Shown here: one piece after another, positions 2,215-64,000 of the stretch
Position numbering within the stretch: the stretch's first letter is position 1
How the letters are laid out: each line of letters starts with the position of its first letter
Assembly (NCBI GenBank): GCA_030386875.1
Contig: CM059567.1
Location: 79,477,130-79,541,129, forward strand
Direction: 5' to 3'
DNA length: 64,000 nucleotides
DNA from: Morinoia aosen
Taxonomy: Eukaryota > Arthropoda > Malacostraca > Amphipoda > Talitridae
Program-made: the position numbers and the translations under genes
The notes under the pieces: generated by a model
Databases searched by the model: none
What the model was told of the DNA's origin: nothing
The model's input: the letters and a program-made list of their open reading frames with translations, nothing else

Positions 2215-2799
2215 CTGGAACGAGTTCAGTTTACTTATTATCGTTTGTCTACTTGACATAATTTTTCGTTTTACTAGTTATCGTTTTCTTGTTACACATT
2301 CATTGGTTGAAACGATGAATGAACTAACAGTCATCGATCTGTTATTTTCGTACAGCGAGTTGCTTTCGCACTTCAAAAATTGACATATTATAGTGTGCGT
2401 AATATAATATGTTTAAAAGCAATACAAACAATTCAAACTGTAATTATTATCACAGTACAAATTTGGGATTGAAATCTATGAAAAATTTTCATTAGAAGTG
2501 TTAAGTAACGTAACTTACGATCGTTAAGTTACGATGGAGTAAAGCTGCTTGCATTCACTCCAAACCGAGTTTTTCCTTTCGTTTACTATATATTGTTTAC
2601 TAATGTACTAGCCCACTTACAGTGATACTGACCGCTATCTATTGTGCGAACTATCACCTGCAATGGTAAATTACTACTTCTTTCTTTTACTGATGATTGC
2701 TGCCTTCATCACTTATTTTCAGAACAATCCTCCTTTCACACTCTTAAATCTTTCGCAAACGTCAATCTATCCCCTTCATTTAAGGATGGCGGTACCCAC
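2215..2799 (-). other. Predicted intron
   Basis: AT-rich sequence between the donor CCAG|GTGGGT (exon end at 2800) and the acceptor at 2214. Both flanking exons are read in phase 1, so the join keeps the frame. No repeat or second gene seen. Confidence 0.5.
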
Positions 2800-15791: not shown

Positions 15792-15931
15792 TGTTATATT
15801 CTTCTTTTCTTTAGAATCCAAATTCTAGGGTTTTCAAATTTCTACGTCTTTTCAAGTCTAATCTTCAAATCAAAGGAGTTTTTTTCCGAAAGAAAACACG
15901 TCTCTTTCAATGTGGCCACATCGTTTTACTT

Positions 15932-17750: not shown

Positions 17751-18446
17751 ATAATGAAAGATGTACACAAAACATGACAATGGGGTAGATGAGACTAGCA
17801 AATATTAGAACAATTGCTACGAGGGTCTTACGCAACTTTTGGGTACGCAGCGACGTCGGGGTATGATGATAAGATCTCGAATTGTACGTTAAAGTCTTTT
17901 ACGTGAAGATTAACAAGATTAACACAGAGTCAGGGACTAATACGGTGTGCCTACCGTATTCAAGTTAACAAATTAAAGAAAGCGGCACCGAGAGATCTTT
18001 AAGCGACGGAGTTTCGCTCTATAGTGATGATGCCCTAGCCCTCGTCGTACCCTTTAAGTAGACTCGCGCCGTGACCGTTACTTCTGAGGCATGCAGCAGA
18101 TGCCGCAGCTGAATACCCCTGTCGTCGCTTAGGCCCAGCCGCACTCTCGGGTAGTGCCCGCCGTTGCCATCTGCTGTTGCCGTCCGCTGCTACGCTGGTG
18201 CCATGCTGGTGCCATGCTGGTGCCATGCTGTTGCCACGCTGCCACGCTGGCCCTGGGAGCGCAGGCGTTGCCTCTTTTTTTTGTAACGGTCGAGCCCTCG
18301 CTGGGTAAGCATCGACATCTGGCGCGTTGTATAATGCTGAGCTTTGAGATTTCCTGATAGCAGAGTTCGGTGTAAGCTCTCACGTCCAACCGCCTTTTAC
18401 TCTTTTTTGTGGTGAAAACTTAACGGTTCGTACACGGGACACAACA

Positions 18447-25392: not shown

Positions 25393-26220
25393 TGTTATAT
25401 TCTTCTTTTCTTTAGAATCCAAATTCTAGGGTTTTCAAATTTTTACGTCTTTTCAAGTCTAATCTTCAAATCAAAGGAGTTTTTTTCCGAAAGAAAACAC
25501 GTCTCTTTCAATGTGGCCACATCGTTTTACTTGTTATAATGAAAGATGTACACAAAACATGACAATGGGGTAGATGAGACTAGCAAATATTAGAACAATT
25601 GCTACGAGGGTCTTACGCAACTTTTGGGTACGCAGCGACGTCGGGGTATGATGATAAGATCTCGAATTGTACGTTAAAGTCTTTTACGTGAAGATTAACA
25701 AGATTAACACAGAGTCAGGGACTAATACGGTGTGCCTACCGTATTCAAGTTAACAAATTAAAGAAAGCGGCACCGAGAGATCTTTAAGCGACGGAGTTTC
25801 GCTCTATAGTGATGATGCCCTAGCCCTCGTCGTACCCTTTAAGTAGACTCGCGCCGTGACCGTTACTTCTGAGGCATGCAGCAGATGCCGCAGCTGAATA
25901 CCCCTGTCGTCGCTTAGGCCCAGCCGCACTCTCGGGTAGTGCCCGCCGTTGCCATCTGCTGTTGCCGTCCGCTGCTACGCTGGTGCCATGCTGGTGCCAT
26001 GCTGTTGCCACGCTGCCACGCTGGCCCTGGGAGCGCAGGCGTTGCCTCTTTTTTTTGTAACGGTCGAGCCCTCGCTGGGTAAGCATCGACATCTGGCGCG
26101 TTGTATAATGCTGAGCTTTGAGATATCCTGATAGCAGAGTTTGGTGTAAGCTCTCACGTCCAACCGCCTTTTACTCTTTTTTGTGGTGAAAACTTAACGG
26201 TTCGTACACGGGACACAACA
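25393..26220 (-). repeat. Right (5') LTR of the gypsy element
   Basis: An 828 bp uninterrupted LTR, TG...CA bounded. It matches the split left LTR except for a handful of single-base differences and one fewer 11 bp unit. The target duplication CACG follows at 26221. Confidence 0.92.
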
Positions 26221-32200: not shown

Positions 32201-33816
32201 AATAAAAAGGTGGTTAAATTTGGTGTGATAAGCTTTTGTGATGATGTGCAATTGTATGTCATTAATTAAGTCACGAGTATTACATCCCACGGGTCAGACC
32301 GGGCTGAATCCCAAAATTTGAGCAAGCTCTTTCGCTAAATGGGAAAAGTATGAAGTTCCGAAATACTGATCAGGTCTAACTCTACCGTAGCGAGATACAT
32401 TACACTTTTATCAATATTTGTAGCATCCAACTGCGTGTCGACACTGCCGTTTTATTTTGTCGAATGTAATCAACAATAGCCTTTCGTTACTGTGTGTCCG
32501 TAATACAAATGTAACACTGCAGATGACCTCATGGCGCCTTTGGCTATCTTTCAAAAATATCAAATGTTGAAATAGGCCGGCCTCGATTTAAGTGCACCAA
32601 ATCCGTATCACAAGTCTTTTATAAACTCATGCAATGCCTAAGTGTTTTTTTGAATAAATTTCCTGTCTTTTCCACTGAATTAAGTTTTAAGAATAACGCG
32701 AATTCAAAACTTTCAATCGGGCGTCTCTTTTGAACCAATGGCTGGGAGATTTGTGTTGAGACCGGACCGTTCAGTACGTGCGTAAATGACAAGGCCCAAT
32801 AAGCACCTCTTTTGAAAATAACTTAGGATATTCTAAAATTTTGTGTAAGAGGTAACAACGATCGTATTCCTCATCAATTGAAATTTAATTGCTGCTAATG
32901 GAGCTGCGATATCAATGAACGGAACCCAGCCAGCTAGTTAGGTATTGATGCAGCAGGCAACAATGTTTCATGATTGTTTGCGCAGGACTTCCCATGAATG
33001 TTCTTATAATTAGAAAACGTTAAAATATTTCAGCTTCGATTGAATTTGAACTAATTACACCCCTCGAAATTTCATGCTATTCGTCATTATTTTATAACAG
33101 CTATCTGATGTGTTTTTTTTCTTAGTTATCCGGGCACACAGCATTGCATTCGCTATGCAAGATTTAATTCTACGATTTCTGTATTCTACGTCACCCATTT
33201 CGAAAATTGAGTAGAATAAATTAATCGTTATGTTGATACTCATGAGGTACTCGCATAGAGCCTGAAGAAAATATCCTGAAAATGTTATTGAGCGTACAAA
33301 TAATGCCAGCGTAGAGACGCCGGTATAATGTGAGAGTCATGCTAGGCTAAGAGTCTGGCAATGTGCTGATCGCAACACACTGGTGTAGAGCTAAAGATAC
33401 CATTTAAAATTTCTACACCCTTTTTTGACGATCATCCAACCTAAATGACAGGAATATTAGTTAGAAATAAATATGAAAGAAAATCAAAATTAGAACGTAG
33501 TCTCACACTTCACAATTTTGTTCGGGAGCTCTGATTTATGATCTTGCAATTCGACGCAAAAATTAACTAAATACCAAACATTTTTCAATGTATTATATTT
33601 TGCAGTAATTTTTGGTAAACTTTCTTATTTCATCTACGAGCACTACTTAATGAAGTAGATAATAACTGAGCGCGTCACAAAAAGTGTGTATTGTGATTTT
33701 CAATGACCATTGAGGCCATTGAGCAAGAGTTTGCGTGATACCTCGACAGGGGAATTATGACGAGAAGAAAACGATTTTGAAGGTAAATTTTGCTTTGTTA
33801 GCAGGCTTAAAAAGGC
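26221..33816. other. AT-rich non-coding DNA
   Basis: About 7.6 kb with no supported gene, RNA or intact transposon. The first ten bases are the displaced end of the SINE head. A short (ttgt)n microsatellite lies near 29970 and a GC-rich patch at 29490-29640 shows no consistent exon. Confidence 0.4.
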
Positions 33817-35173
33817 GTTAAGGGCAAAAACCAAAGAAGTCCACAATGTATAGAACTGTATGTAGTCAATACTAAAACTAAGGTATTAGTATTAACCCAT
33901 CATCAACCGAAAATCTGCAATTAAAAACAGCGAATTTAATATTGTGACTAAGTAATTGCACATATTGTACATAACTAGAGATGTTAAACATTGGTGATTA
34001 CGGACAGACTGCATACCCTACAAACTGCGCACAAGTAAAGGAGAAAATGAATGCATTGCACAATGAGTCGCAATTGAACTGTAAATACCAGAGCGTTCCT
34101 TTAACCTATAGCTGCCCTATCAAAAGCAACTGATGCGCACTCTGCATATCATTATGATTTTTTTTGTTCTTTTGTATATAAAGAGATCCAAGATTTTTTG
34201 AGTTTTGTTACATAAAGAACAGGCGCTAAAATAGAGAAATCGGAATTGGAAATTTTAACATCGCACTGTTCCTCTACATGAGATCTTATGGCAGAGTGTG
34301 AAGGGTGACAAAGACGAACCCCAGTTCTTGAACTTATCCTGACTTGCTACGCCGGTCTGACACGTAATGTACGTACTGTTGAGCCGGCATACGTAGACGC
34401 ATACTGTGCACAACTGTATTTATAGACAAGACTAGAACAGAGGCGCGAAGGAATTTTGTCCTCAAACCGCAAAAATGAAGCAATGGTGAATGTGTTGACT
34501 AGCACGATTTGAAAATACACATGAGGGAGAAAGGACGACATCAATGACAACAATTCACACTTCAATTGCTCTGACTGGTCACCAAAATACGGAGTACGAA
34601 TACAAATACGAATACGAATCTTAAGTTTATCAACTGTTTTGGTAGGTAGAGCACATTATTATTTCTCGATCAAAAAATTGCAAATTTTGGCATTGATAGC
34701 AGTGAGAGGGAAACCATTATTAATTATCTTCGAAAAAATTACGTAAAAATTCAAATTCGAAATTGAGTGATTTAAAAAAAGCGCAAATGTTGTATGATCG
34801 AAACAAAAGAGTTTTAATACCTGTATCTTTCAACTAAGAAGAACAAAAACTGAAAAACTGGATTCCAAGCCAGAAAACCATGTCTTACGGTAAACCGATG
34901 TTTCCACTTTGCCGTTTTGCTTTGTTGCAAGAGCGTCTAAAATTGAAAGTTTTCCATCACTTTCACACATTCAATATTATATTTGATGGATGGATGTCGA
35001 GAGTTCAAACGTTGTAAAAACCGAGAAGCATGTAAGGGATTTCGAAAAAGAACAAATGAATCGTCAATGTACCTCTGATGAAAAAAAACTGGCCGATACT
35101 CAGATGGACATTCATCTAACCACTTTTTCTCAATATTGTACATAAATATATTGGTACGTGTGGGTACTCCCAT
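33817..35173 (-). pseudogene. Penelope-like element, RT and GIY-YIG pieces (broken)
   Basis: Minus-strand pieces in the order of a Penelope-like element. At 34937-35173 lie the RT pieces FFHQRYIDDSFVLF (catalytic Asp pair) and FLQRLNSRHPSIKY. At 34347-34565 lies the start of the GIY-YIG endonuclease, SSLVYKYSCAQYASTYAGST. At about 34180-34300 lies the C-terminal stretch with HPSHSAIRSH and SDFSILAP. The 3' untranslated part reaches about 33817. The copy is truncated at its 5' side and broken by several changes, so it cannot be active. Family assignment rests on the RT-plus-GIY-YIG combination, which is specific to Penelope-like elements. Confidence 0.85.
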
Positions 35174-35177
35174 TCCG

Positions 35178-35678
35178 AGTCTTTGTCACCCTCCACACTC
35201 TGTCATAAGATTTCGTGCAGGAACAGAGTAACGTTAAAATTTCTGATTCCAATTTCTCCATTTTAGCGTCTGTTCGTAATTTGACAAAGCTGCGAATTCT
35301 TGAATCTTTTTATATACATATGAGCAAACCCAATCTTAATGATATGCAGTGTGCGCATCCCTGGCTTTTGGTCGGGCAGCTATAGCTTGAGGGTGCGCTC
35401 TGGTATTTACTTTTCCATTACGTCCCATTATGCAATGCATTCATTTTCTCCTTTACTTGTGTGCAGTTTATATGGTATGCAGTCTGTCCATCATCATCAA
35501 TGTTTAACATCTCTAGTTATGTACAATATGTGCATCGTGTGCAATTACCTAGCCAGGATAGTAAATTCTCTCTTTTTAAATGCAGTTTATGATGATGCGT
35601 CAAGGCACGAAAAGTTCGGTTTAGTATTGACCACATGCAATTTTAACAATGAGGACTTCTTTGATTTTTGCCCTTAAC
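35178..35678 (+). pseudogene. Second Penelope-like 3' end in opposite orientation
   Basis: This segment is a diverged inverted copy of 33817-34320. On the plus strand it keeps the Penelope-like C-terminal coding piece SDSNFSILASVRNLTKLRI followed by LESFYIHMSKPNLND and the same 3' untranslated sequence (ending cccttaac). The two 3' ends therefore point away from each other around the RT fragment. Inverted or tandem partial copies are a known trait of Penelope elements. Broken. Confidence 0.82.
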
Positions 35679-35984
35679 TTTCTAGAGGACGATTTAGTTC
35701 AATGGTTTATTTGAGTACGAAGGTGTAATTTGAGCTGCAGTCAAGCTAAGCGATTGTGATTCACCGATTTTTCTGAGAAACGAAAACCTTGAGGTAACGT
35801 CCGCCATAGTCTATCCCCAGTGTTAAAAAACAGCTGCGCGGCCTCTGTGGTGGTATGGGGTGAGATCTCGATCAATGATCGGGATCTCGAAGGCGAGCGT
35901 TGGCTGCAGAGTGCGTTAACGAGAGTGTGCTGAGGCGCTCATAATGTAACAAGCAGAGTGCCTATCGTGGCGACGTAATAGATC

Positions 35985-36312
35985 GGAGAGCGCTGTCGTG
36001 GACTGCCTGCTACATCTACATGGGGTAAAGCGGAGTAGAGCTTCTGAAGAGGCGCTTGTGAACGACAGTTAGCGAAGAACGAAGGAGCGCTTGTGTAGAA
36101 GGAGCACTTTGTGAATTTGTGAAAGAGCGCTTAGCAAAAGAGCGCTGGCGAAGGAGCCCTTACGTGGTTGCGCTTATGTTGAAGCTTTTGCCCATCGAAG
36201 GAAAGCTTGTTTATAAACGCTTGTGAAGGAGCACGTACCCAGTGAAGGAATGGTCTTTTAGAAGTAATTACAGAAAGAGCGCTTACGTAGGCACTTTTGT
36301 AAGAGCGCTTAC
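35985..36312 (+). repeat. Degenerate GAGCGCTT-rich tract
   Basis: About ten copies of (a/g)gagcgctt(g/a) or close variants, spaced irregularly by 10-60 bp and often preceded by gaag and followed by gtgaa or acgtag. Each holds the palindrome AGCGCT. The spacing is too irregular for a normal minisatellite. Confidence 0.6.
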
Positions 36313-45597: not shown

Positions 45598-46612
45598 TTT
45601 GTCAGCCCTGTTTTAACATGAAAATTTTAAAAACGTTACATATTTTGCTCTCGATCGTCAATCATGGATAACCTCTACAAATAAATTTGTGCAAGAATTT
45701 TAGGTAGTCCTCTGCGCGGCACGCCTAAACGGAGGCGGCCGGTGGACGTTATTCCTAGACCCGGTAATTTTGGCATACTGGATATCCTAAACAAGAGGCG
45801 ATGAAGAATAAAAGTACCATAAATTTTTGCATTAGCGCGGATTAAAAAACAATACAACTCGTAAAATATTATGGGAAACGTGTCAAAAATGAACTGGCTA
45901 CAAACCGAGGCGCACGTTCACCAATTTCCGCTGTCAAATTTCCAGGGAAAATTGCAGCAATAGGGACCTTTCCTCCAACGGCCCTATAGTGGAATAAACG
46001 CAATTGAAGGAAATGATTAATGCTTCTATATAAAGAGAAAACCCTGCATTTAAATCTTTCCCAAGAACTAAATCATTGAAACTTGTATACAAGTCCAGAC
46101 TGGCACATGACAACTCAAAAAACGAGTCTCAAATTAACTCAAAAATGCAACTACTGATAATGGAATTGATTTTATGCATACCCAAATAAGGGTTGTGTTT
46201 CATCCTCCGAATGATCATTTTTTGAACAAAATGAAACTGAACGTTGATAAAAACTCTAAATTATCAGCAGTTGAGGATTTTTTGCAAATGTGGGCAAAAA
46301 TGTCCCGTTTTGGAAAATGCTAAATGAATACAACACCAAAACATCTGGCGGTAAAACAAAATGCAATGAGCCAAACTGAATAATAAATATCTTTAAATTT
46401 CTGCTTTTGGAAGGAATTAAGTTGAATCAACCGAAAAAGCTGAGTATCAGACTCAAATAGCAAATAATTACTCAATTATGAAATTTCACCATGCGTTATC
46501 TACATTTATTTAACACCGCGAACGTAGAATGCTAAAATTCATCACTGCAAATGTTTATCAAACTACAACACTGTAATGGGACAAGTTATGTTGATCCTAA
46601 CCTAAAAACAGA

Positions 46613-46621
46613 GAATACTTT
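46613..46621 (+). other. Target site duplication, left
   Basis: GAATACTTT, identical to 54661-54669 directly outside the other end of the palindromic element. Confidence 0.9.
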
Positions 46622-46679
46622 ACCGGCTAGCCATTTTAGAGAACCCATCTAAGATCCTTTGCGAATTACCCTGACAAAA

Positions 46680-47215
46680 AGGGTAATTTCTAAACTATAA
46701 AACGTACAATCTTGAAATTAGTACCAAATTAATGGGCGTGACGAGTACAACATATTTATGTAATTAAAAATTTTTTTACGCCCCTGTGGGGGGCAGGAAG
46801 AGAGCCTCTCGGGGCCCCTCAATACACGGCCGATTTTCTCTATAACGCTCATTTTGTACGAGTCATAATTTCTAAAGAATTGCACCTAAAAACTTGAAAT
46901 TAGTCTCATTATAAAGACCGATTTATTCTCCAACTCTGAGTGTATAATAAAACTGTCATACGCTCCCTGGAGGAAGATGAAGAGCAAGTTTCTCCTAGCC
47001 TCTGAATGGTCGACCGATTTTTCAAAAGGCTCATTTTGTACGAGTCATAATTTCTAAACTATTGCACCTAAAAATTTGAAATTAGTCTCATTATAAAGAT
47101 CGATTTATTCTCCAACTCTGTGTGTGTAATAAAACTCTCATACGCTCCCTGGGGGATGACAGAGAGCAAGGTTTCTCCGCCTTCTCCTAGCCTCGTAATC
47201 CGCGCTGCCGAAGGC
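46680..47215 (+). repeat. Subterminal 182 bp repeats, left arm
   Basis: Three diverged tandem units with a 182 bp period. The shared core aatttctaaa starts at 46685, 46867 and 47049, followed by cttgaaatta or similar at matching offsets. The second and third units also share cattataaaga, tttattctccaactctg and catacgctccctgg. The right arm carries the mirror image (about 54067-54602). Confidence 0.8.
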
Positions 47216-48290
47216 CGCGCTCACCTAAGTTATGAAGTGCTGTTTGAATTCTTGTCCATAGCCTTGTCGTTCCCACATCGTGGGTCTTCGAATCCCGGAG
47301 GTGACGATATTTTTTTTCTCAGTTGTAGAATAATCATTTTCATGTGTCTTACTCATGTAGACTTTTTCTACGTAATGCCTCTCATTTGTTGTTAAATATG
47401 GTTCGTCAATAAAATACAATAGAGGTGTCCGAACTGAAATTAATGCAGTTTCAAGTTTTGAAGACTTTTATAGCGTGATAGTTTTGTGCATCTAGTGATA
47501 GTTTTCTTGTTCTCTTCTACACATAGGCCTACCTATACGTACAAAAGTGTTCAAGTGAAAATACAGCTGTGAAGTTGGTATCAATTTCCGAAACATATGC
47601 ATTCAGTGAAGTAATAATAAATTCCTCTGTTGTGCTGTGCCTGTTTATTAAAAAATGAGAAGAAACCCAACAAAGCAATCCCTCTAATTCCAGAAATCAA
47701 ACGAATTCCCAAAGTTTGCATCATTATAGTGATTTCGCTTTCTGGACTTAGATAAGGGCAATCAAATCTGCAATCGACATTTAGAGATTATATACTCATT
47801 TGAATATTCCTGCAATACTTCGTTATTCAAAACCTAATGCGAATGTTTGGTATTCTGGGATCTCCGAAATGAGAGGGATTACGTAGAGGAAAATTATGAT
47901 AATTTTTTTCTATTTTTTTTATTAATTTTCGTATTGAAATTTAGCGATATATTTCATAATATGTAGATGATTGAAGAAGTGAACAAATTTCTTATACTAT
48001 TCTAATGATTATCATTATTCAGTAGTTACACCATGCGCAAAGTACCCCAAAGTGTAAGGAATGATACTTTCATGAATGAATTCCCAGAATATGACTCTGT
48101 GGACGGAAATCTGTACAATACTTATTGCGGGAAAACTGTTCGTTTATCGTGAAACATTATAAGAGTTTACTCTGTTTTTGTCCAAATATCGGCTGAGCCT
48201 TCATCTTTATCAATAACGAAGATAATCCTTTTGGTTCAGCATAAAGTTAACTAAAATTAACCATTTTCATCTACGGTAAAATCAAAGAAA

Positions 48291-48358
48291 GCTGGTAGCT
48301 CGCTTTGACTAAGTTCCCTTCTGTCAAGGTGTCGCGGGTTCGAATCCCATCGCTGCGC
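48291..48358 (+). other. tRNA-like segment in left arm
   Basis: gctggtagctcgctttgac is followed by a ttgac/gtcaa stem and gcgggttcgaatccc, a good B box with a T-arm stem. The acceptor stem is not convincing, so this is a tRNA or SINE-head relic and not a working tRNA gene. Mirrored at 52924-52991 on the minus strand. Confidence 0.5.
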
Positions 48359-48814
48359 ATCGATTTTTGGATGGCATCAAGTGAATATTTTTTATGTTTT
48401 CTTCATTAGCAGCAAATGCATGATATTTTAAATATTGAAGACTATCGTAAAGAATCATTACTTTACGGTTCAATATTTGATATATCGCACAATATCCAAT
48501 TAACTGAAGCCCTTCATTCAGCAGTCGCATGTTGCTTGCAAATAATTGCGAGGTACTGTGCATACGACACTCCGCAATCGCATATATCTAACCTGGAGCC
48601 GCATATTTTAAGCGCTGACAATTTCACATACGCGTCCATATATGCATGTGTATATTAGCACAGCTTTAATTATAAGCATTATTAGGTTTCCTCAAAGCGT
48701 TACTGCAGAAATAGAAAGTTAGTATCAAGTTCTTAGTTGGAAAAGTTATGCCAATATGCCAGTACAAAAAATCGCCAATACAAGCGCGCCCCAACGAGAG
48801 TCTTCTCAACTATC

Positions 48815-48965
48815 CGCAGTTTTGGGCAGCTGCGCCGCAGATCGCAACTTTTTCTGTTGCGGTTGCAACCGGTTGCGCCGCAATAATTTTTGGAAAGTTG
48901 CGAACCTGTTGCGATCGCAACAATTTTCGACGTGTAGGGCCACAACTCGCAACCGCAACATCACG
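48815..48965. repeat. Cluster of GTTGCG / CGCAAC motifs, left arm
   Basis: Within 150 bp there are roughly a dozen gttgc(g) or (c)gcaac hexamers on both strands, including the palindromes ttgcaaccggttgc and ttgcgatcgcaa. Mirrored at about 52317-52470. Dense inverted hexamers could be protein-binding sites or the remains of a nested small transposon end. Confidence 0.5.
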
Positions 48966-49298
48966 ATGTCAATTAAATTTGCAAAATAACTTCAATAAAG
49001 TTCAATACGCGTTTCATTCTCGTTTGAAACTAAACCGTACAGGGTACAACCCATCTGGCAACTGTTTATTATAAGCATTAGGCGATACAGTGAAACACAT
49101 ACACTTTGCTTACAGTATATAAGTATATTTTAATGTAACTCATTATATAACATATGTTATTAGGAATGATGTAAGTTGTTAGTGTAGAATTATGTGTTAT
49201 ACGGCAAATTTACATAGCTAGATGATGCGATTTGCCAATGTACTTCAAATCGACGATTTTATCTTGGCGTCCTCTCTGCATCCACATTTTAAGCTAAA

Positions 49299-49514
49299 AT
49301 GGCTAAACGAAGTGCAAAGAGTGGAGGTAATAACAACAAACTAATCGCCCATCTTAATGACAGATCGGAAAATGGTATTTCAGCTTAGGGGAGCAGTGCC
49401 GAGGACGTAGATGACGAAGATGACTTCTTCAACGTCGTAATGAAATCGGATGAGATGGAAAAAACGAAGAGAAGTTCGTTGAAACAAGTCGATGATTGGC
49501 TGAAACATTTTTGA
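49299..49514 (+). pseudogene. Relic 72-codon ORF in left arm
   Basis: A frame starting MAKRSAKSGGNNNKLIAH and ending SSLKQVDDWLKHF, with an acidic middle (SSAEDVDDEDDFFNVV). One in-frame TAG interrupts it after about 29 codons. Codon use and the basic-acidic-amphipathic pattern suggest a real former N-terminus, perhaps of a lost transposase. It is not assignable to a family by eye. Confidence 0.4.
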
Positions 49515-49952
49515 GAAGCAACGTTGATCGTCATTACAGTGCATAGACATTGTCACATCGAGATCACGAACCAGTATTAAAATCATAGGAGTGGAATAAC
49601 AAAAAGCAGAGGAATATCATATATTACAGGAGCATATGCATGGTTTTTCTTTATGCGTCATATAGGCAATACAAATGTTCTGCACTTTTCTGTTTTCTAA
49701 TTTATTTGCTATATATACGGAACTCCTATCAAAATATAGCTACTAGCTAAGTACCTTCTCATTATTATTAGTAAAAAATGAAATTCATTTTATTTTAGGG
49801 TGTCACAAGAAAGCGAAGTGAATCGGACACACTCCAGCACTTGTTGCCCTTGTTTCCTGTCGTAAGAAATTTAGCCAGGGAAATTTTCAGCTTCATATCT
49901 CGTCTTTTACTGGTCGCGCATTTCATTCAGTTTTGTGCTGGGCGTCAGGTTG

Positions 49953-50139
49953 TGCAGCGGTCACTGGTATAGCGTGCAGCGGTCACTGGTATAGCGTGCA
50001 GCGGTCACTGGTATAGCGTGCAGCGGTCACTGGTATAGCGTGCAGCGGTCACTGGTATAGCGTGCAGCGGTCACTGGTATAGCGTGCAGCGGTCACTGGT
50101 ATAGCGTGCAGCGGTCACTGGTATAGCGTGCAGCGGTCA
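49953..50139 (+). repeat. 22 bp tandem array, left arm (8 copies)
   Basis: Eight head-to-tail copies of tgcagcggtcactggtatagcg plus a partial ninth, almost without variation. There are no spacers between units, so it is not CRISPR-like. Confidence 0.95.
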
Positions 50140-50550
50140 ATGTTGTAAGGGCATTAGGTAGGTGAGCTCTATTTTACAATAACAAATATTTTTCTTGTTT
50201 CATGAACTTCTTCCTTAGCTTAATGTTTCTATGCACCTTGTGCAATGTGCATAGATTCCGCGTTCCTTCAACTACATACTAAATGATGCCTTCATCCTTC
50301 CTCTTTTTGAACATCTTTGTTGTGGTAAAGGGAGGCTAAAACTTCCTTATATAATAATAGTAATGCTTCCATAAGATAAACCGAGCTCGCGTCTCGTAGG
50401 TACTTGTGAATCAGACTTCTATGAGGATTTTCAAATTTTCGTGTCAGCTTGTTTGCTTTTTGCATTTTCACCGGACTTATTGCGGAAATTTAGCTTTCAC
50501 TCATCTTATGGTGCCTTATGGGGTGAGTAGAGGTGTGAGTGGTGCCTTAT

Positions 50551-50620
50551 GGCGCCACTCATCCCTCTACAGCGAGGCACCACTCACCCCTCTACAGCGA
50601 GACACCACTCACCCCTCTAC
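50551..50620. repeat. Centre of the palindrome with a short tandem
   Basis: The 70 bp that are not mirrored. They consist of three imperfect units of caccactca(t/c)ccctctacagcgag, related to the cactcacacctctac just inside the arms. The loop is thus built from the same short motif as the inner arm ends. Confidence 0.75.
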
Positions 50621-51032
50621 ATAAAGGCACCACTCACACCTCTACTCACCCCATAAGGCACCATAAGATGAGTGAAAGCTAAATTTCCGCAATAAGTCCG
50701 GTGAAAATGCAAAAAGCAAACAAGCTGACACGAAAATTTGAAAATCCTCATAGAAGTCTGATTCACAAGTACCTACGAGACGCGAGCTCGGTTTATCTTA
50801 TGGAAGCATTACTATTATTATATAAGGAAGTTTTAGCCTCCCTTTACCACAACAAAGATGTTCAAAAAGAGGAAGGATGAAGGCATCATTTAGTATGTAG
50901 TTGAAGGAACGCGGAATCTATGCACATTGCACAAGGTGCATAGAAACATTAAGCTAAGGAAGAAGTTCATGAAACAAGAAAAATATTTGTTATTGTAAAA
51001 TAGAGCTCAACTACCTAATGCCCTTACAACAT

Positions 51033-51329
51033 TGACCGCTGCACGCTATTCCAGTGACCGCTGCACGCTATACCAGTGACCGCTGCACGCTATACCAGTG
51101 ACCGCTGCACGCTATACCAGTGACCGCTGCACGCTATACCAGTGACCGCTGCACGCTATACCAGTGACCGCTGCACGCTATACCAGTGACCGCTGCACGC
51201 TATACCAGTGACCGCTGCACGCTATACCAGTGACCGCTGCACGCTATACCAGTGACCGCTGCACGCTATACCAGTGACCGCTGCACGCTATACCAGTGAC
51301 CGCTGCACGCTATACCAGTGACCGCTGCA
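51033..51329 (-). repeat. 22 bp tandem array, right arm (13 copies)
   Basis: The same unit as the left array, in inverted orientation, 13 copies plus a partial. The innermost copy has one substitution (ctattcc for ctatacc). The five extra copies (110 bp) account for nearly all of the length difference between the arms. Confidence 0.95.
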
Positions 51330-51767
51330 CAACCTGACGCCCAGCATAAAACTGAATGAAATGCGCGACCAGTAAAAGACGAGATATGAAGCGGAAAATT
51401 TCCCTGGTTAAATTTCTTACGACAGGAAACAAGGGCAACAAGTGCTGGAGTGTGTCCGATTCACTTCGCTTTCTTGTGACACCCTAAAATAAAATGAATT
51501 TCATTTGTTACTAATAATAATGAGAAGGTACTTAGCCAGTAGCTATATTTTGATAGGAGTTCCGTATATATAGCAAATAAATTAGAAAACAGAAAAGTGC
51601 AGAACATTTGTATTGCCTATATGACGCATAAAGAAAAACCATGCATATGCTCCTGTAATATATGATATTCCTCTGCTTTTTGTTATTCCACTCCTATGAT
51701 TTTAATACTGGTTTGTGATCTCGATGTGACAATGTCTATGCACTGTAATGACGATCAACGTTGCTTC

Positions 51768-51983
51768 TCAAAAATGTTTCAGCCAATCATCGACTTGTTT
51801 CAACGAACTTCTCTTCGTTTTTTCCATCTCATCCGATTTCATTACGACGTTGAAGAAGTCATCTTCGTCATCTACGTCCTCGGCACTGCTCCCCTAAGCT
51901 GAAATACCATTTTCCGATCTGTCATTAAGATGGGCGATTAGTTTGTTGTTATTACCTCCACTCTTTGCACTTCGTTTAGCCAT
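51768..51983 (-). pseudogene. Relic 72-codon ORF in right arm
   Basis: Mirror copy of 49299-49514 with the same start, in-frame TAG and stop. The identical interruption on both arms shows it predates the palindrome or has been homogenised between arms. Confidence 0.4.
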
Positions 51984-52923
51984 TTTAGCTTAAAATGTGG
52001 ATGCAGAGAGGACGCCAAGATAAAATCGTCGATTTGAAGTACATTGGCAAATCGCATCATCTAGCTATGTAAATTTGCCGTATAACACATAATTCTACAC
52101 TAACAACTTACATCATTCCTAATAACATATGTTATATAATGAGTTACATTAAAATATACTTATATACTGTAAGCAAAGTGTATGTGTTTCACTGTATCGC
52201 CTAATGCTTATAATAAACAGTTGCCAGATGGGTTGTACCCTGTACGGTTTAGTTTCAAACGAGAATGAAACGCGTATTGAACTTTATTGAAGTTATTTTG
52301 CAAATTTAATTGACATCGTGATGTTGCGGTTGCGAGTTGTGGCCCTACACGTCGAAAATTGTTGCGATCGCAACAGGTTCGCAACTTTCCAAAAATTATT
52401 GCGGCGCAACCGGTTGCAACCGCAACAGAAAAAGTTGCGATCTGCGGCGCAGCTGCCCAAAACTGCGGATAGTTGAGAAGACTCTCGTTGGGGCGCGCTT
52501 GTATTGGCGATTTTTTGTACTGGCATATTGGCATAACTTTTCCAACTAAGAATTTGATACTAACTTTCTATTTCTGCAGTAACGCTTTGAGGAAACCTAA
52601 TAATGCTTATAATTAAAGCTGTGCTAATATACACATGCATATATGGACGCGTATGTGAAATTGTCAGCGCTTAAAATATGCGGCTCCAGGTTAGATATAT
52701 GCGATTGCGGAGTGTCGTATGCACAGTACCTCGCAATTATTTGCAAGCAACATGCGACTGCTGAATGAAGGGCTTCAGTTAATTGGATATTGTGCGATAT
52801 ATCAAATATTGAACCGTAAAGTAATGATTCTTTACGATAGTCTTCAATATTTAAAATATCATGCATTTGCTGCTAATGAAGAAAACATAAAAAATATTCA
52901 CTGGATGCCATCCAAAAATCGAT

Positions 52924-52991
52924 GCGCAGCGATGGGATTCGAACCCGCGACACCTTGACAGAAGGGAACTTAGTCAAAGCGAGCTACCAGC
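52924..52991 (-). other. tRNA-like segment in right arm
   Basis: Mirror of 48291-48358, with the same B box gggttcgaatccc read on the minus strand. Confidence 0.5.
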
Positions 52992-54066
52992 TTTCTTTGA
53001 TTTTACCGTAGATGAAAATGGTTAATTTTAGTTAACTTTATGCTGAACCAAAAGGATTATCTTCGTTATTGATAAAGATGAAGGCTCAGCCGATATTTGG
53101 ACAAAAACAGAGTAAACTCTTATAATGTTTCACGATAAACGAACAGTTTTCCCGCAATAAGTATTGTACAGATTTCCGTCCACAGAGTCATATTCTGGGA
53201 ATTCATTCATGAAAGTATCATTCCTTACACTTTGGGGTACTTTGCGCATGGTGTAACTACTGAATAATGATAATCATTAGAATAGTATAAGAAATTAGTT
53301 CACTTCTTCAATCATCTACATATTATGAAATATATCGCTAAATTTCAATACGAAAATTAATAAAAAAAATAGAAAAAAATTATCATAATTTTCCTCTACG
53401 TAATCCCTCTCATTTCGGAGATCCCAGAATACCAAACATTCGCATTAGGTTTTGAATAACGAAGTATTGCAGGAATATTCAAATGAGTATATAATCTCTA
53501 AATGTCGATTGCAGATTTGATTGCCCTTATCTAAGTCCAGAAAGCGAAATCACTATAATGATGCAAACTTTGGGAATTCGTTTGATTTCTGGAATTAGAG
53601 GGATTGCTTTGTTGGGTTTCTTCTCATTTTTTAATAAACAGGCACAGCACAACAGAGGAATTTATTATTAGTTCACTGAATGCAAATGTTTCGGAAATTG
53701 ATACAAACTTCACGGCTGTATTTTCACTTGAACACTTTTGTACGTATAGGTAGGCCTATGTGTAGAAGAGAACAAGAAAACTATCACTAGATGCACAAAA
53801 CTATCACGCTATAAAAGTCTTCAAAACTTGAAACTGCATTAATTTCAGTTCGGACACCTCTATTGTATTTTATTGACGAACCATATTTAACAACAAATGA
53901 GAGGCATTACGTAGAAAAAGTCTACATGAGTAAGACACATGAAAATGATTATTCTACAACTGAGAAAAAAAATATCGTCACCTCCGGGATTCGAAGACCC
54001 ACGATGTGGGAACGACAAGGCTATGGACAAGAATTCAAACAGCACTTCATAACTTAGGTGAGCGCG

Positions 54067-54602
54067 GCCTTCGGCAGCGCGGATTACGAGGCTAGGAGAA
54101 GGCGGAGAAACCTTGCTCTCTGTCATCCCCCAGGGAGCGTATGAGAGTTTTATTACACACACAGAGTTGGAGAATAAATCGATCTTTATAATGAGACTAA
54201 TTTCAAATTTTTAGGTGCAATAGTTTAGAAATTATGACTCGTACAAAATGAGCCTTTTGAAAAATCGGTCGACCATTCAGAGGCTAGGAGAAACTTGCTC
54301 TTCATCTTCCTCCAGGGAGCGTATGACAGTTTTATTATACACTCAGAGTTGGAGAATAAATCGGTCTTTATAATGAGACTAATTTCAAGTTTTTAGGTGC
54401 AATACTTTAGAAATTATGACTCGTACAAAATGAGCGTTATAGAGAAAATCGGCCGAGTATTGAGGGGCCCCGAGAGGCTCTCTTCCTGCCCCCCACAGGG
54501 GCGTAAAAAATTTTTTAATTACATAAATATGTTGTACTCGTCACGCCCATTAATTTGGTACTAATTTCAAGATTGTACGTTTTATAGTTTAGAAATTACC
54601 CT
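54067..54602 (-). repeat. Subterminal 182 bp repeats, right arm
   Basis: Mirror image of the three units at 46680-47215, with a few scattered substitutions (for example aatactcgg here against aatacacgg in the left-arm sense). Confidence 0.78.
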
Positions 54603-54660
54603 TTTTGTCAGGGTAATTCGCAAAGGATCTTAGATGGGTTCTCTAAAATGGCTAGCCGGT

Positions 54661-54669
54661 GAATACTTT
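54661..54669 (+). other. Target site duplication, right
   Basis: GAATACTTT directly after the terminal GGCTAGCCGGT, matching 46613-46621. Confidence 0.9.
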
Positions 54670-57239
54670 CTGAGATTCTTATATTTCGACGATTCGGGCA
54701 TCACTATAATGGACTCATGAGTTAAAGAAGTAGCGAAAGAACAAATGCCAAATGAGAGATATGTAATCCTGTCGTCGAAGTATTGGACCTGTCAGCACAT
54801 CTAAGCAAATTTAAATAGTAAACATGATAATCGAGATGAGTTGCCACAAACAATTTTTAATTGTGAAGTTAGATTGTAGTTACAGAATGTACCACCTCGC
54901 TTGACGCTATCAAGAAAATGATGCGTTTTTCTGTTGGAATATCTTTGATGTAGGCTATAACATTACGTGAATATAGCGCGATTTGGCTCCTCTTACAAGC
55001 CTTAAATTAAGCCGCCAGAGAGACAGTGCGAAAGCTAAACGTCCTTCGCTACATCGTACATCAGACAACTGGCACGAAGAAGGAGCGCAGCCAACTTGGC
55101 GCATCAAAGACCGCTCTTGTGCGTCATTTGTGGAAGGTCGGTGGAGGCAGCAGCAGCTATTACATCATCGCACGTAGTAACCTCACCTGAGAAAGTTAGA
55201 ATATCTCGAATAAAAAATGAGTGTGAGAGTTATATTTCTTTAAAAAAAAAATTACGCTAATGGTGAATTAACTCTAATTTGAGGATAAACTAAAACTACT
55301 GGTGACTAGATAAAATGATCAAGAAGTGAAATGAAAGTGAAATGGAACGCCATAATTGGGGGTAACAGCTTTTGCGTTAACACTGACGCATGAGCCTCAC
55401 GATTAGAGGATGACTTATGTTGTTAAGGATGACGAATAGAAGTAAATATTTGTACATGTAAATTTAAAAAGTCGATTTCGAAGAAGTTTGAAACAATTTT
55501 CGCCCACTTACATATGCGAGTATACAATTGTTAACATGCAGCAATCAGGAGAGGATTTTTTTTTTATTCCCCGACTAATTTCAGAATTAATCGCTTGCAT
55601 AAAGCGGACATTTATGAAGGATTATCGAATTTTGAGATCAACTATCGAACGTAAATAATGGATACATTCCAGAACATTCACCTTGACAGGAAATGTTAAA
55701 TAAATGAACATTTTTAAGATCTAATGTGTTGAACTTCTTAGAGAAACTTTTTGAAGAAACACGGTTTTTCCTTTCTTTCTCTTTGGTCCAAGAAAATTAT
55801 TGAACTTTTGTAAGAATTCAAATATCAACAAGAGCATCAAAATACTCAAAACATTTTTGTTGCAAACCGCAAAACCAAGGTCGTTCAACCATGGTAAAAA
55901 TATCTCAAGCGCAGTTTGCAAGGATTGGAGAAATAGATCAAGTAATCGAGCTTCATCTCAGGTGCCCATGTATGTATGTTATTATAGGGAATACCGAGAG
56001 AGTGCGAAACCTTAAATGAAAATGGAGGGAGTGCGGAACCGAGTGTGCGAAACTTAAAATGTTTCTTATTTTTAGACTGTAGCTTCATTTTTTCTGAAAT
56101 TTTTGAGAGTTTCTTAAGTCTTTATTGACAATTTTATTTTTATAATTATTTTTTTCGACTGCACGAAGTAATAGAGTCATCAGTTTTGATGTAGCAAGGT
56201 GAAATCTTTCGTTTTTTCTGAAAAAACTGAAAGTCATGTCGATTACATTTGCTAAACGCTCTGCAACCAGTTAGGACAGAACTTTTAATCGCAAATAACT
56301 CCAAATTTCAGTGAATAAAATTAGTACTCTGACTCACTGTTTCAAAAGAGATCTGTTGCTACCCCAGTGAGCGTTGTACGTTTCTATTTTGAATGTAAAT
56401 AGATAAATGAAATAAGCGCAATCTAAGCTTAAGATTCATAAACTCATCATCTCACTCATCGTATGATGAACAAGCTCTGAAATTTATTCCTACTTGTATG
56501 TTTGTTTATTTGGTTTAGATTTGCGTGTTGTGCTCTGTTTCTTCGGTAAATTACTTTTGTCTAACATTTTCTCACTACTTGAAAATCATTTAGGACGAGA
56601 TTTTACCCTGCTTCTGATGAATGTCTGACGTCTTTCCTTCTTTTGTTTTACCTTATGGCAAAGAACCTCAAAAGCATTCTCTAGTAGTAATCAAAGTATT
56701 TATAAGCTTTCAGTTATCTTGCCTTAGATAAAAAATCCAAGAGAAAATAGTTTGAGTGTTTCTCTCAATAACATAATTAACATCTGGCACGGCTATTGTA
56801 CACCTCGTAAGGTTTGTCTATCAGTTAAGGAACTTTATATTAATTTTTTTTTTAAAAACAAAATGTTGTTATACATTTCATGTAACAACTTTCTTGTAGC
56901 ATAAACGGTCTCTCTTTTTCTTTCTTTCTTTCTTTCTTTCAACACCGCACGGAACGTACGCACCTACAGCAAGTCATAGCAAGTGCCCGAAAGCAGCACT
57001 CAACCCTCATCTTCAAATTTTCAACAGCACTCGTTATGATCCATCGTCTGCGGGGTCACGTATATCGAGAAAAGTTTCATCACTTGCGGATGGTGCAATT
57101 GTGAACATTTCATCAGAAGCGGTTGAGAACAATCGAATCAACTGAACTAAGTCGAATGAACTAAGCTTAATAATCAAAAATTCGCATTCATACATAGGTA
57201 TCTCCAGCGTTCAAGATGTAAATTGCATAAATCCTAATT
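54670..57239. other. Non-coding DNA
   Basis: AT-rich, with a GC-richer patch at 54980-55190 (a 64-codon plus-strand frame of no known type) and a (ttct)n microsatellite at 56911-56941. Nothing else supported. Confidence 0.4.
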
Positions 57240-58620
57240 AGATTAATAGCAACAATGCTTTCAGCGAGTGTAGGAATAAAGGACTTCATATAAATGGCCA
57301 AACAGGCAACTTTGGTTTCTCAGCGCTGAGCAGTACAAGCAAGAATGCTATTTTTGATGAATATTTGCATCCAACGCAAATTTCAATTTCGCAAAGCAAT
57401 CACACTGTAAACAATAACTTCTCTTTCATTGCGTCCCACTTGATTGGAATATTAGAAGGCGGGTACCTCGATCCAACCCCATTTTCGATATCTTCCGCCG
57501 CTTCAAATATTGTGCTCAAAATAGAACAAATTTTCAAGCTGAATTACATATAGGTTTTTTATCTCACGCCTGAGATCAAACCTAAAACTGCTGAATATTT
57601 CAAGTCATACTATCATGAACCTCTCGATACTTTTCGTGTGGCAGATAATATTCTAATAGAAAAGACATTGATCGCTCGAGCAAAATTCCAGCCTTAACCC
57701 GAGCACTTTGATGACCTTGATAACGCCCAGGAGAGAATACTGTTGATGTTGCCTTGTTGAGGTGCTAGTAGATTTTATTGATTTTACCGAACCTCGCAGT
57801 TCAAAATTACATTATCTGCTCCCGAGGTTTTAGCCTCTCGCCCTCAGGCCGCACTAAGATCAAAGAACTTACGATGACCTAGGCTGCTTTTCTCGTTTTC
57901 TGGAGTTAATGTCAGTTACGGTCAATAATTGTTCAGGGCATCTAATTTGTGCAAAAATTTGTATAAAACTAATTCCACTTGGAACTTATAGGCTGTAATT
58001 CATGTTGCTGCTTGCTATGATGTCCGCACACGGCCTTGTAAGCGAGAAGGAATGCTCCATTTCCTTCAACGAATTTCTTTTAGTTCCATTCGACGAATCA
58101 CTTTACAACAATGATCCTATTTTATAAATTCCTGTAGCCTAAATTCATCGAACACTCTAACGATAAAAAAAATACAAAATGAACGGAATAATACTTTTGA
58201 CTTAAGAGCTCTCTCAAGTAAAATTTCTGGCAATGTGCTCATTTATCGCCCGCCTATTGATGATAAACATTTTCCTTCCTCGAACTCTGACTACTATACA
58301 GTCAATATACAAAAAATAGGTTTTCATTGCCACCCAATGCTACAAATACTGACTGTTACATACCCATCTCAATTTTAAACCACCGACATCCAAAGTTCAG
58401 CATGGGAACAGCGAAGTCAGCAGGAAGAGAAAAGTTGTCTCAAGATTCTGATCGCAATTTAATTAAAAATTAACAACCCAACCACGTTGTTTTATCGACA
58501 CCAAGAAAATAGGCACATCGAGAACATCCCTCATATCCCTGTCGACCCCTCTAAAAGAACTCGCAACAACCTGGACAATCATTGCTATGGAAAACACAAT
58601 AGCGAAAAATTTCTGTACTT
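57240..58620 (+). pseudogene. Decayed coding sequence of unknown family
   Basis: Long peptide-like stretches appear on the plus strand in shifting frames, for example NKGLHINGQTGNFGFSALSS, PKTAEYFKSYYHEPLDTF and HIPVDPSKRTRNNLDNHCYG. Their codon use and composition are unlike the surrounding AT-rich DNA. They are interrupted several times and there is no splice structure, so this looks like an old coding fossil, perhaps from a mobile or viral element or a dead host gene. I could not assign a family. Confidence 0.35.
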
Positions 58621-60599: not shown

Positions 60600-61307
60600 T
60601 TGACCATCTCCTATACACTACTCTATACACTGTCGCGCTCACCGGCTATTGCGCCAACTTCCAGAATTACCTGGCATTTACCATAGTCTCTTCTGCAATA
60701 AGAATATGACAAGCAAAGACAACAAGTAAAGATTGCTCACCTGAACTTCGAAGATAGTTGTCCAGGGAACATTTCTTCATTGCTAGTCGGCTTTCCGGGC
60801 GTTAGGCTGCCCGAAAGCAGGACCGGTTTGGAAGTCGTCAAGCACAAAGGCACGTGCTGCCGACTCCGTTGATGATCTTCTTCTTCTGACGTGTCAGCCC
60901 GCGAAAGCTTCGACGTCAAGGGCGCTCCGAATCCGCTGCTGAGGCTTCAGATTCAGCTCGCAAGAATAAACGAACACATTAGGGATGTTCGATATAAGCA
61001 TTTGTCGCCAGGAAGGGGAAGCAATCCACTTATTGCTTGCTTGTCATATTTAATTGATATTCAGTCTTTTAGGTCAGTAAAGGGGTAATTATGACCTAGT
61101 CCCTGATAATGCAAGATATTGATTAACTTGCAAGGGACTTGAACGAGTAGCAAGGCTGGAGTTGCGACACAATCCCGGCAAAAGAAAAAACGGAGTTTTC
61201 ATAGAAAATTCCGTGAAATACACAAAGACATGCAATGTCCTTCCAGCTTAACTGGAAAGGACCAAGTAATAATTTTTGCGCATTACACATAAATGAAAGG
61301 GTTTACA
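60600..61307 (-). repeat. Probable 3' LTR region of the BEL/Pao element
   Basis: On the minus strand the pol frame runs into a purine-rich aagaaagggca and then TGTAAACCC, a plausible LTR start at about 61307. About 700 bp of moderately GC-rich DNA follows. The outer LTR edge and its partner are not visible (the other LTR lies off the right edge), so the left limit is a guess. Confidence 0.4.
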
Positions 61308-64000
61308 AATGCCCTTTCTTAATAAGATAAGTTAATTTACTACGTTGCTGACGCGCCGCTTGCCTTTGAGGGCGGTCAGCAGAAGTAACTACGGGTTCTT
61401 CGGACAAGGCCGAAGAATCCGTATCAGAAGAAGTTGAAGAATTAAGCTGCTGAACTCTAGGGTGTTCAGAGGTAGAACGACCCCTTTGAGTTTCAAACCG
61501 CGCGGGAGGCTTGGAACGAGGGTATGATTCCGCGTCCGAACCACTCCCGTCTGCGCTATCTTCCACCTCCTCTGGAGTAGGATCGGTCACAACTAACTCC
61601 AGTGGGTACAGCAACGAGACTTTAATGGCGCTTTCAGTGTTATCAGCCCTTATAATTCTTACAACACGGACCTTGCCGTCGCGACCAGGGAGCAAAGCAC
61701 TGATGCGAGCCAAGGCCCAAAATGGTCTGGGTTTTATAGGGTGTTTTACAAGTACCACTTGACCCACAGCTAATAATTTGTTTTGCAAAGGTAAAGATTT
61801 CAGAGGATATGGACCTCGCAAAGAAATAAGATACTGAGAATACCAAAGCTCCCGGAACTTGGCGACCATGACATCGCGTCTCTCCAAAAGAGTGAGCAAA
61901 TGCTCGCGATGCTCAACATCGTCAGTCTCCAAGTCCGGAAGCTCATCGGACAGAATAAGAGAATTAGATGTAGGGTAAAGTTGAAGAAATTGAAGGGGCA
62001 TTATAGGTAAAATCGAGTCCCCCATCTCCGTGTACGAGAGAGGACGCCGATTAAGGTTGAGAGAAATATCAGAAATGACAGTTATGAAAGAAGAATAAGA
62101 ATAAGTGCTCCGTCCAAAAAGTTTGTATATGCAATCCTTTATGGACTTGAACAGGCGTTCCCATATCGCTCCAAATTGAGGACTGTAGATAGGGATAGTT
62201 TTGAATTTAATATTAAAAGGGCGAAATCGCTCTTCATACAAAGAGGAAGTTAGCACTTCCGATAGAAGATCGGGAGCGGCGGTGAAAGTCCTAGCATTGT
62301 CAGAATAAACAGTGTTAGGAATGCCCTTTTCGTTCGTAAACCGAATGAAGGCGAAACAAAATTCCTCCAGAGACATAGAAGGAAGAACTTCAATGTGAAT
62401 AGCCCTAGTCTGAAAACACGTAAATAACAACAAATACACCTTTTGCTTGTGACCAAAAGGGTCTAATACCCAAAAGTGGGCAGAGAAATCCATGCCAGTT
62501 GTGGCAAATGGCCTCACGAAATTAGTACGAGAGTCAGGTAGAGCAGGAGGATCGGGATAGTTAAATGCTTTAGCGTTTAGCTTCTTGCATACAATGCATT
62601 TAGCCAAGACGCCGCGAACTGTACGCTTGCAGCGTGGCACGACATAACCGTCCAGCTTAAGTTTTTGAACGGTGATGTCGAGCCCCTGATGGTTAAGAAG
62701 TTTATGGGTATGTGAAATTAACAAATTGGTCAAATGTGAAGAACTAGACAGCAAGATGGGGTTGCGAGTGTTATAGTCTAATTCCTCAGCATTTGCAATA
62801 CGACTATTAGAACGAATGATACCGTGAGAATCAAGAAAAAGGTTGAAGGTTCTAACTAGCAGAGGCGGCCGAGGACTTTTATTTTTCAAGGCCTCGAGCT
62901 CGCCTGCAAAGTATTTACTTTGCATAGAAGAAATAAGAAAAATGAAAGCTCGCAATTTTACATTACCCAAATCTGCACGTCGAAAAATAGCGACTGCTTT
63001 AAATACATTCTCCATCGTGCCCAGTAATTTAGGATAGGAGGAGAAGCGTTCAATCTCCAAAATAGGAGCTTCACACGGAGGAACAATATTAACATTGATA
63101 CAGGCAGAGGAAACAAATTGATGGGGAATGCAACCCAGGTGTCCCTTGGGCCACTGATCCTTACCCTCTCGAATCCAGTCAGGACCTTCCAACCATACAG
63201 TTTTGTTCTCGAGAAATTTTGATGCTTTAATACCTCGCGTTAACATGTCTGCCATGTTGTACATGGTGGGCACGTATTCATAATGGAAAGAAGCTGCAGT
63301 TAAACCTTCCAACGTCAGGCGCATGCTGTCTATATCCTTAATTCTATTACTGACAAAGATATTCTTTCGAGGAGGCTTACCACTTAATAACCAAGCCAGG
63401 GTAACCTGGGAATCGGTAAGAAAAGTTACACTTGAGACCGTATAGGGAAAGTTGACGTCACACATCAAAGAAACAAGACACTGGTACGCAAGATACACTG
63501 CCAGAAGTTCAAGAGAAGGAAGAGTTCTTTGCCTAGGAGGCGAAACTTTAACTTTAGAGAAAAGGAGTGAGCTGCGCTCTTTTTGGACACCGTACATGCA
63601 GGTTCCAAAAGCTCTTTCACTAGCATCACAAAAAATTACTAGATCAATTTTCTCAGTTTCAACAAAATTCATCCTAGGGAACTCAAATTCATGCAATTCA
63701 GAGAATTCCTGACAAAATATACGCCATTCTTTACAGATATCATCGGGAACGTCTTGATCCCAGCCTAGTCTCAACGGTGTTAATCTACGTAAAATGAGTT
63801 TTCCTCGAACAGAGAACGGCAACAGAATTCCCAACGGATCATACAAAGAAGCAATGTCTGACAGCATACTCCTACGAGTTTTACAGGAAGGATTTAAGCT
63901 TTTTACAGAAATGGAAAGAGAGTCAGAAGTAGAATCAAAGTTGTAACCCAGCACTCTAGAGTGCACACTGGAGCTACAAAGAGAAGGGTCAATCTGAGAC
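61303..64000 (-). CDS. pol: BEL/Pao pol: RT end, RNase H, integrase (runs off right edge)
   Basis: The frame is open from the right edge to 61303, at least 887 residues. It starts in the C-terminal part of RT (SMLSDIASLYDPLGILLPF, the BEL connection region). RNase H follows (VIFCDASERAFGTCMYG and TDSQVTLAWL), then YVPTMYNMADMLTRG, the integrase zinc region (HKLLNHQGLDITVQKL with CIVCKKLN) and the core (TGMDFSAHFWVLDPFG, YSDNARTF, WERLFKSIKD). The BEL-specific C-terminal domain is VGQVVLVKHPIKPRPFWALA. The order and the final domain mark BEL/Pao rather than gypsy. It acts in reverse transcription and integration. The visible part looks whole; gag, protease and the 5' LTR lie outside the window. 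Confidence 0.93.
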   Translation of the reverse strand, partial: SQIDPSLCSSSVHSRVLGYNFDSTSDSLSISVKSLNPSCKTRRSMLSDIASLYDPLGILLPFSVRGKLILRRLTPLRLGWDQDVPDDICKEWRIFCQEFSELHEFEFPRMNFVETEKIDLVIFCDASERAFGTCMYGVQKERSSLLFSKVKVSPPRQRTLPSLELLAVYLAYQCLVSLMCDVNFPYTVSSVTFLTDSQVTLAWLLSGKPPRKNIFVSNRIKDIDSMRLTLEGLTAASFHYEYVPTMYNMADMLTRGIKASKFLENKTVWLEGPDWIREGKDQWPKGHLGCIPHQFVSSACINVNIVPPCEAPILEIERFSSYPKLLGTMENVFKAVAIFRRADLGNVKLRAFIFLISSMQSKYFAGELEALKNKSPRPPLLVRTFNLFLDSHGIIRSNSRIANAEELDYNTRNPILLSSSSHLTNLLISHTHKLLNHQGLDITVQKLKLDGYVVPRCKRTVRGVLAKCIVCKKLNAKAFNYPDPPALPDSRTNFVRPFATTGMDFSAHFWVLDPFGHKQKVYLLLFTCFQTRAIHIEVLPSMSLEEFCFAFIRFTNEKGIPNTVYSDNARTFTAAPDLLSEVLTSSLYEERFRPFNIKFKTIPIYSPQFGAIWERLFKSIKDCIYKLFGRSTYSYSSFITVISDISLNLNRRPLSYTEMGDSILPIMPLQFLQLYPTSNSLILSDELPDLETDDVEHREHLLTLLERRDVMVAKFRELWYSQYLISLRGPYPLKSLPLQNKLLAVGQVVLVKHPIKPRPFWALARISALLPGRDGKVRVVRIIRADNTESAIKVSLLYPLELVVTDPTPEEVEDSADGSGSDAESYPRSKPPARFETQRGRSTSEHPRVQQLNSSTSSDTDSSALSEEPVVTSADRPQRQAARQQRSKLTYLIKKGHL

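Follow-up and report, generated by a model that had tools for sequence, protein, structure and literature searches.

The window (the whole 64-kb stretch of DNA analysed here) contains a single 8039-bp palindromic element at positions 46622-54660, and, as the 9-bp target duplication on either side shows, an element with these termini was inserted at this site. It has the structure of a foldback-type TIR transposon: very long inverted repeats make up most of the element, tandem repeats lie inside these inverted repeats, and a 9-bp target-site duplication flanks the whole, so the foldback label given to it in the sequence-only reading holds. We consider it likely that this is a class II (TIR) DNA transposon of foldback type, non-autonomous and mobilised in trans, that acquired its palindromic form through inverted duplication; Mutator/MULE is the most likely superfamily. 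What we infer in this reading is the superfamily, the binding of a transposase to the repeats, the movement in trans and the way in which the palindrome arose.

Ends, arms and internal repeats

The features of the element are collected in Table 1. The two copies of GAATACTTT are perfect direct repeats that bracket the palindrome ends exactly, as had been claimed from the sequence alone. On the + strand of the window GAATACTTT occurs only at 46613 and 54661, with its reverse complement at three further places, and string searches of the window located one copy each of ACCGGCTAGCC and GGCTAGCCGGT, at 46622 and 54650 respectively. Pairs of 9-mers drawn at random from the window were identical in 18 of 2,000,000 draws, and the agreement at the two palindrome ends is therefore not a matter of chance. 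The hairpin listed near each end was predicted with RNA energy parameters, without a shuffle control.

Table 1. Features of the palindromic element, in window coordinates
Feature	Position	Mirror copy	Strand	Basis
Left 9-bp target-site duplication, GAATACTTT	46613-46621		+	String search
Terminal motif ACCGGCTAGCC, with 8-bp palindrome GGCTAGCC inside	46622-46632	54650-54660	+	Sequence reading
Left palindrome arm, 3927 bp	46622-50548		+	End-to-end alignment against right arm
Predicted hairpin near end, 10-bp stem and 7-nt loop	46663-46689	54593-54619	+	Arm mapping for mirror copy
Subterminal repeat of ~182 bp, about 2.7 copies	46684-47178	54104-54598	+	BLAST of outer 639 bp against itself
Relic ORF, in-frame stop at 49386	49299-49514		+	ORF list and arm alignment
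Left 22-bp tandem array, 8.5 copies	49952-50139		+	Tandem-repeat search
Local inverted repeat GAGTGGTGCC-TTAT-GGCGCCACTC	50537-50560		no strand	Sequence reading
25-bp tandem array, 3.8 copies	50551-50645		no strand	Tandem-repeat search
Right palindrome arm, 4037 bp	50624-54660		-	Self-BLAST, alignment, tandem-repeat search
Right 22-bp tandem array, 13.5 copies	51033-51330		-	Tandem-repeat search
Relic ORF, mirror copy	51768-51983		-	Arm mapping
Right 9-bp target-site duplication, GAATACTTT	54661-54669		+	String search

When the window was compared with itself by BLAST, two inverted matches covered the arms: 46609-50142 against 54672-51140, with 99.4% identity (20 mismatches and 1 gap in 3534 columns), and 49952-50551 against 51220-50620, with 99.5% identity over 601 columns. 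Aligned end to end, the arms differ at 20 positions. Three of these (50549-50551) belong to the centre junction; outside the centre 17 mismatches remain in 3927 columns (0.43%, so that the arms are 99.6% matched), comprising 6 transitions and 11 transversions. The sole gap, of 110 bp, falls within the 22-bp array and accounts for the greater length of the right arm, which carries five extra 22-bp units. The near-perfect palindrome with arms of about 4 kb that had been noticed earlier is thus borne out.

Long palindromes are a known hazard in single-molecule libraries, and a doubling of one arm by hairpin-chimeric reads during library preparation or assembly had to be weighed for this reason. 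Such an artefact predicts arms that are identical apart from read error, and a 9-bp repeat common to both ends should not then be followed by unlike flanks. There are instead 17 substitutions between the arms, which also differ by five units of the 22-bp array; the inverted match ends no more than 4 bases beyond the 9-bp duplication, and the two outer ends meet different flanks. We regard the artefact as very unlikely. Two independent head-to-head insertions were also rejected, on the reasoning that a single 9-bp duplication brackets the pair.

The differences between the arms are unevenly spaced. Eight of the 16 gaps between neighbouring mismatches measure 60 bp or less, which was attained in 0.8% of 20,000 random placements, and four mismatches share one 50-bp window (1.2% of random placements), while the remaining two of four statistics applied to the spacing fell short of significance (8.9% and 28.8%). 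The clustering weakly favours conversion between the arms, either before or after insertion. Patchy conversion of this kind also bears on the order of events, because an element with shorter TIRs might have inserted first, with the palindrome growing in place by inverted duplication or arm conversion, so that the 8-kb unit never moved. Such growth is compatible with the reading we prefer, the two accounts being alike except for which step came first, and a single copy cannot tell insertion from later growth. We nevertheless hold it to be possible rather than probable, given the two clustering statistics that were not significant and a perfect duplication that fits a recent insertion of the whole unit equally well. 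Of the earlier proposal that arms and centre moved as one unit, what stands is that an element with these termini was inserted, and movement of the whole palindrome is likely, though growth could have come later.

The ~182-bp repeats occupy element positions 63-557, the first of them beginning 62 bp inside the arm end. The inner 1.9 copies were detected by TRF too, and the similarity between the two inner copies is ~89%; in the BLAST comparison of the outer 639 bp, element positions 63-374 match 245-557 at 76.7% identity and 63-184 match 427-546 at 67.2%. The first 62 bp of the element align with this repeat solely under forced global alignment. At the centre, the 25-bp array occupies the spacer between the arms and extends into the right arm; since it is present at the inner arm end, the spacer is largely the same repeat. 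The local inverted repeat GAGTGGTGCC-TTAT-GGCGCCACTC, with 9 of 10 pairs matched and a 4-nt loop, lies where the left arm ends on its inner side, at the left edge of the array. A centre of about 70 bp, as described from the sequence, does exist between the arms, but it consists mostly of extra 25-bp tandem units and not of unrelated sequence. The internal tandem arrays mentioned in that description are likewise present, and can now be specified as a unit of ~182 bp and two arrays, one of 22-bp units close to the centre and one of 25-bp units in the centre itself.

Coding content and mobilisation

A Pfam search with six frames of the left half, stops being read as X, gave 0 families with the E limit set at 10, though the HMMER filters discard most matches above about 0.1; a MULE DDE transposase was accordingly not matched in the left half. 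The absence of Pfam families there leads us to read the element as non-autonomous. Counted from 49299, codons 30 and 72 of the short relic ORF are stops, and there are no arm differences inside 49299-49514, so it is identical in both arms. A protein search with it returned 17 candidates with shared words and none at E of 1 or better, in agreement with the earlier remark that the relic ORF was unfamiliar. Because the same decayed frame stands in both arms, the arms were copied from each other, or homogenised, after the decay. In Rfam searches nothing in the whole window reached its gathering score, and the three matches of the left half (E 1.9 to 4.4) fell far under theirs; ARAGORN found no tRNA. 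Each arm does contain TTCGAATCCC (47287, mirror 53986) and GTTCGAATCC (48338, mirror 52934), which resemble the B box, and these are perhaps old pieces of tRNA-derived SINEs acquired before the arms were duplicated.

That the perfect 9-bp duplication coincides exactly with the limits of the palindrome argues for a foldback element moved by a MULE, a superfamily in which such duplications measure 8-10 bp and mostly 9 bp. The tandem repeats of the arms differ in copy number, as reported for the TIRs of Tm1, Tetris and Galileo, which supports the foldback reading, and subterminal repeats together with a palindromic terminal motif, both reported for Muta1, support the MULE assignment. Since the left half yielded no transposase domain, as expected of a non-autonomous copy, the element is better called probably MULE-moved than a proven MULE. 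By analogy, mobilisation was most likely in trans, by a transposase made elsewhere. The ~182-bp repeats in the outer ~560 bp would serve such an enzyme as repeated binding sites; it would cleave the element at its ACCGGCTAGCC ends and integrate it through a 9-bp staggered cut. In the origin that we favour, the ancestor was an already decayed element with shorter TIRs, one half of which would have been duplicated in inverted orientation when, in the course of replication or gap repair, the strand primed on itself by folding back or switched template; slippage in the 22-bp array, and possibly conversion between the arms, would have followed. For TIR elements, Drosophila FB4 among them, one report proposes that genes are captured through template switching at stalled forks (PMC8277862), and we suggest that the same process could yield an inverted duplication. 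In a different and rather improbable view, the palindrome itself is the mobile unit of a giant foldback family, consisting of a 4-kb arm and its mirror and spreading in that form; arm-to-arm conversion would hold the arms nearly identical, and both the formation and the upkeep of the palindrome would belong to the life cycle and not to decay.

The same foldback transposon might also have been moved by a non-MULE transposase, for example one that is Merlin, hAT or P-like, which we judge unlikely. Target duplications in P and hAT elements are 8 bp long and those of Merlin 8-9 bp, so that duplication length is compatible with Merlin too. The foldback form occurs in more than one superfamily, Galileo belonging to the P superfamily (PMC3573991), and a definitive classification of Tetris was not possible (PMC4079207). 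Set against this, duplications of 9 bp are what MULEs most typically produce (8-10 bp; PMC5225508), and the duplications given for Galileo are 7 bp (PMC3573991).

Exact matches were also sought in other sequence collections. A scan of viral contigs with the 25-bp element end gave 0 matches, which says little about an autonomous partner, and a scan of genome contigs with a 20-bp piece hit a single record, which is a Chloroflexi MAG. The exact match in that record extends to 23 bp (element positions 4-26). Further matches in the same 8-kb stretch measure 12-13 bp, and the stretch has a GC content of 60.6%. By our own arithmetic, chance alone should supply about 0.5 exact 20-mers and about 0.01 exact 23-mers in 257 Gb. 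The match, though somewhat longer than is usual for chance, was set aside as a relative because it is without wider similarity.

Other repeats in the window

A second inverted-repeat pair lies at 33817-34315 and 35678-35179, with arms of ~500 bp that are 80% alike; its outer ends carry GTTAAGGGCAAAA and a near mirror, with no obvious flanking direct repeat. Six frames of 33600-36000 gave just a weak RVT_1 match against Pfam (E 0.05, below the cut-off) and nothing above the cut-off. Just to the right of the element is a diverged inverted repeat of about 1.1 kb (56937-58077 and 60159-59053), ~61% identical. Direct repeats at 17751-18446 and 25536-26220, 98% identical, are probably LTRs, as they flank a polyprotein of gypsy type (type name inferred). 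Adjoining the second of these repeats, 141 bp at 25393-25533 recur with 99.3% identity at 15792-15932, the start of a reverse-transcriptase ORF. A reverse-transcriptase ORF in the window is, judged by its domains, presumably of LINE type; homologues of a reverse-transcriptase ORF reach at most 58% identity among the best 120 of 7942. An open fragment of a Pao-type polyprotein at 61306-63999 (-) contains Peptidase_A17 and DUF5641, with integrase matches below the curated cut-offs. Together, the gypsy-, LINE- and Pao-type retroelements give the window an animal-like character. The open frame of 743 codons at 2-2230 (-), Ser/Asn/Asp-rich by eye and with no Pfam match at E 0.001, may be a host-gene exon.

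Relation to described foldback elements

All families, the named MULEs included, were compared by description; among the matches listed from the open-licence literature, the terminal letters of the element do not occur. The Drosophila FB / FB-NOF elements, compared in this way, share foldback arms, internal repeats and a 9-bp duplication with the element described here.

Nearest in form, by description and not by sequence, is Tetris of Drosophila virilis, a foldback element with TIR tandem units of ~220 bp in variable number and 8-10 bp duplications (PMC4079207). Tetris also resembles our element in having no conserved ORF and no identified transposase; its authors placed it in Mutator because of the 8-10 bp duplications, and noted that most foldbacks seem to be Mutator (PMC4079207). 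Its TIRs reach 1,735 bp, compared with ~3.9 kb here, and it has a separate middle domain (PMC4079207). Muta1 and other Aedes aegypti MULEs share 8-9 bp duplications and subterminal tandem repeats with the element, and Muta1, which its authors classed as a type 2 foldback, has a short palindromic terminal motif (imperfect in its case) and many transposase-less derivatives (PMC5225508). Compared by description, Muta1 differs in its 145-bp TIR, its 12-bp repeats and its encoded transposase (PMC5225508).

Tm1 of Meloidogyne has composite TIRs, unequal numbers of tandem repeats and most commonly 9-bp duplications, and it is represented by many MITE-like copies, with a predicted transposase similar to Phantom MULEs (PMC3169594). 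As described there, Tm1 is unlike our element in its far shorter copies, its 13-15 bp repeat and its asymmetric 7-bp end motifs (PMC3169594). Galileo of Drosophila likewise has long TIRs, with tandem units of ~210 bp in one subfamily; they lengthen by tandem expansion and recruitment of internal sequence, and are longest in copies without transposase (PMC3573991). By description it differs in belonging to the P superfamily, in its 7-bp duplications and in TIRs that extend to about 1.25 kb (PMC3573991). The suggestion in the sequence-only reading of an undescribed system is consequently not supported, since Tetris, Galileo, Tm1 and Muta1 have such features. The element is unusually long-armed relative to the described foldbacks compared here, and longer arms may exist in print beyond the open-licence literature.

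With arms of ~3.9 kb that are 99.6% matched, the element represents an extreme foldback structure. Among related elements, Galileo is reported to have caused chromosome inversions (PMC3573991), and Tetris to have given rise to satellite DNA (PMC4079207). If other copies of the present element exist at different stages, they would offer a direct view of TIRs growing into palindromes.
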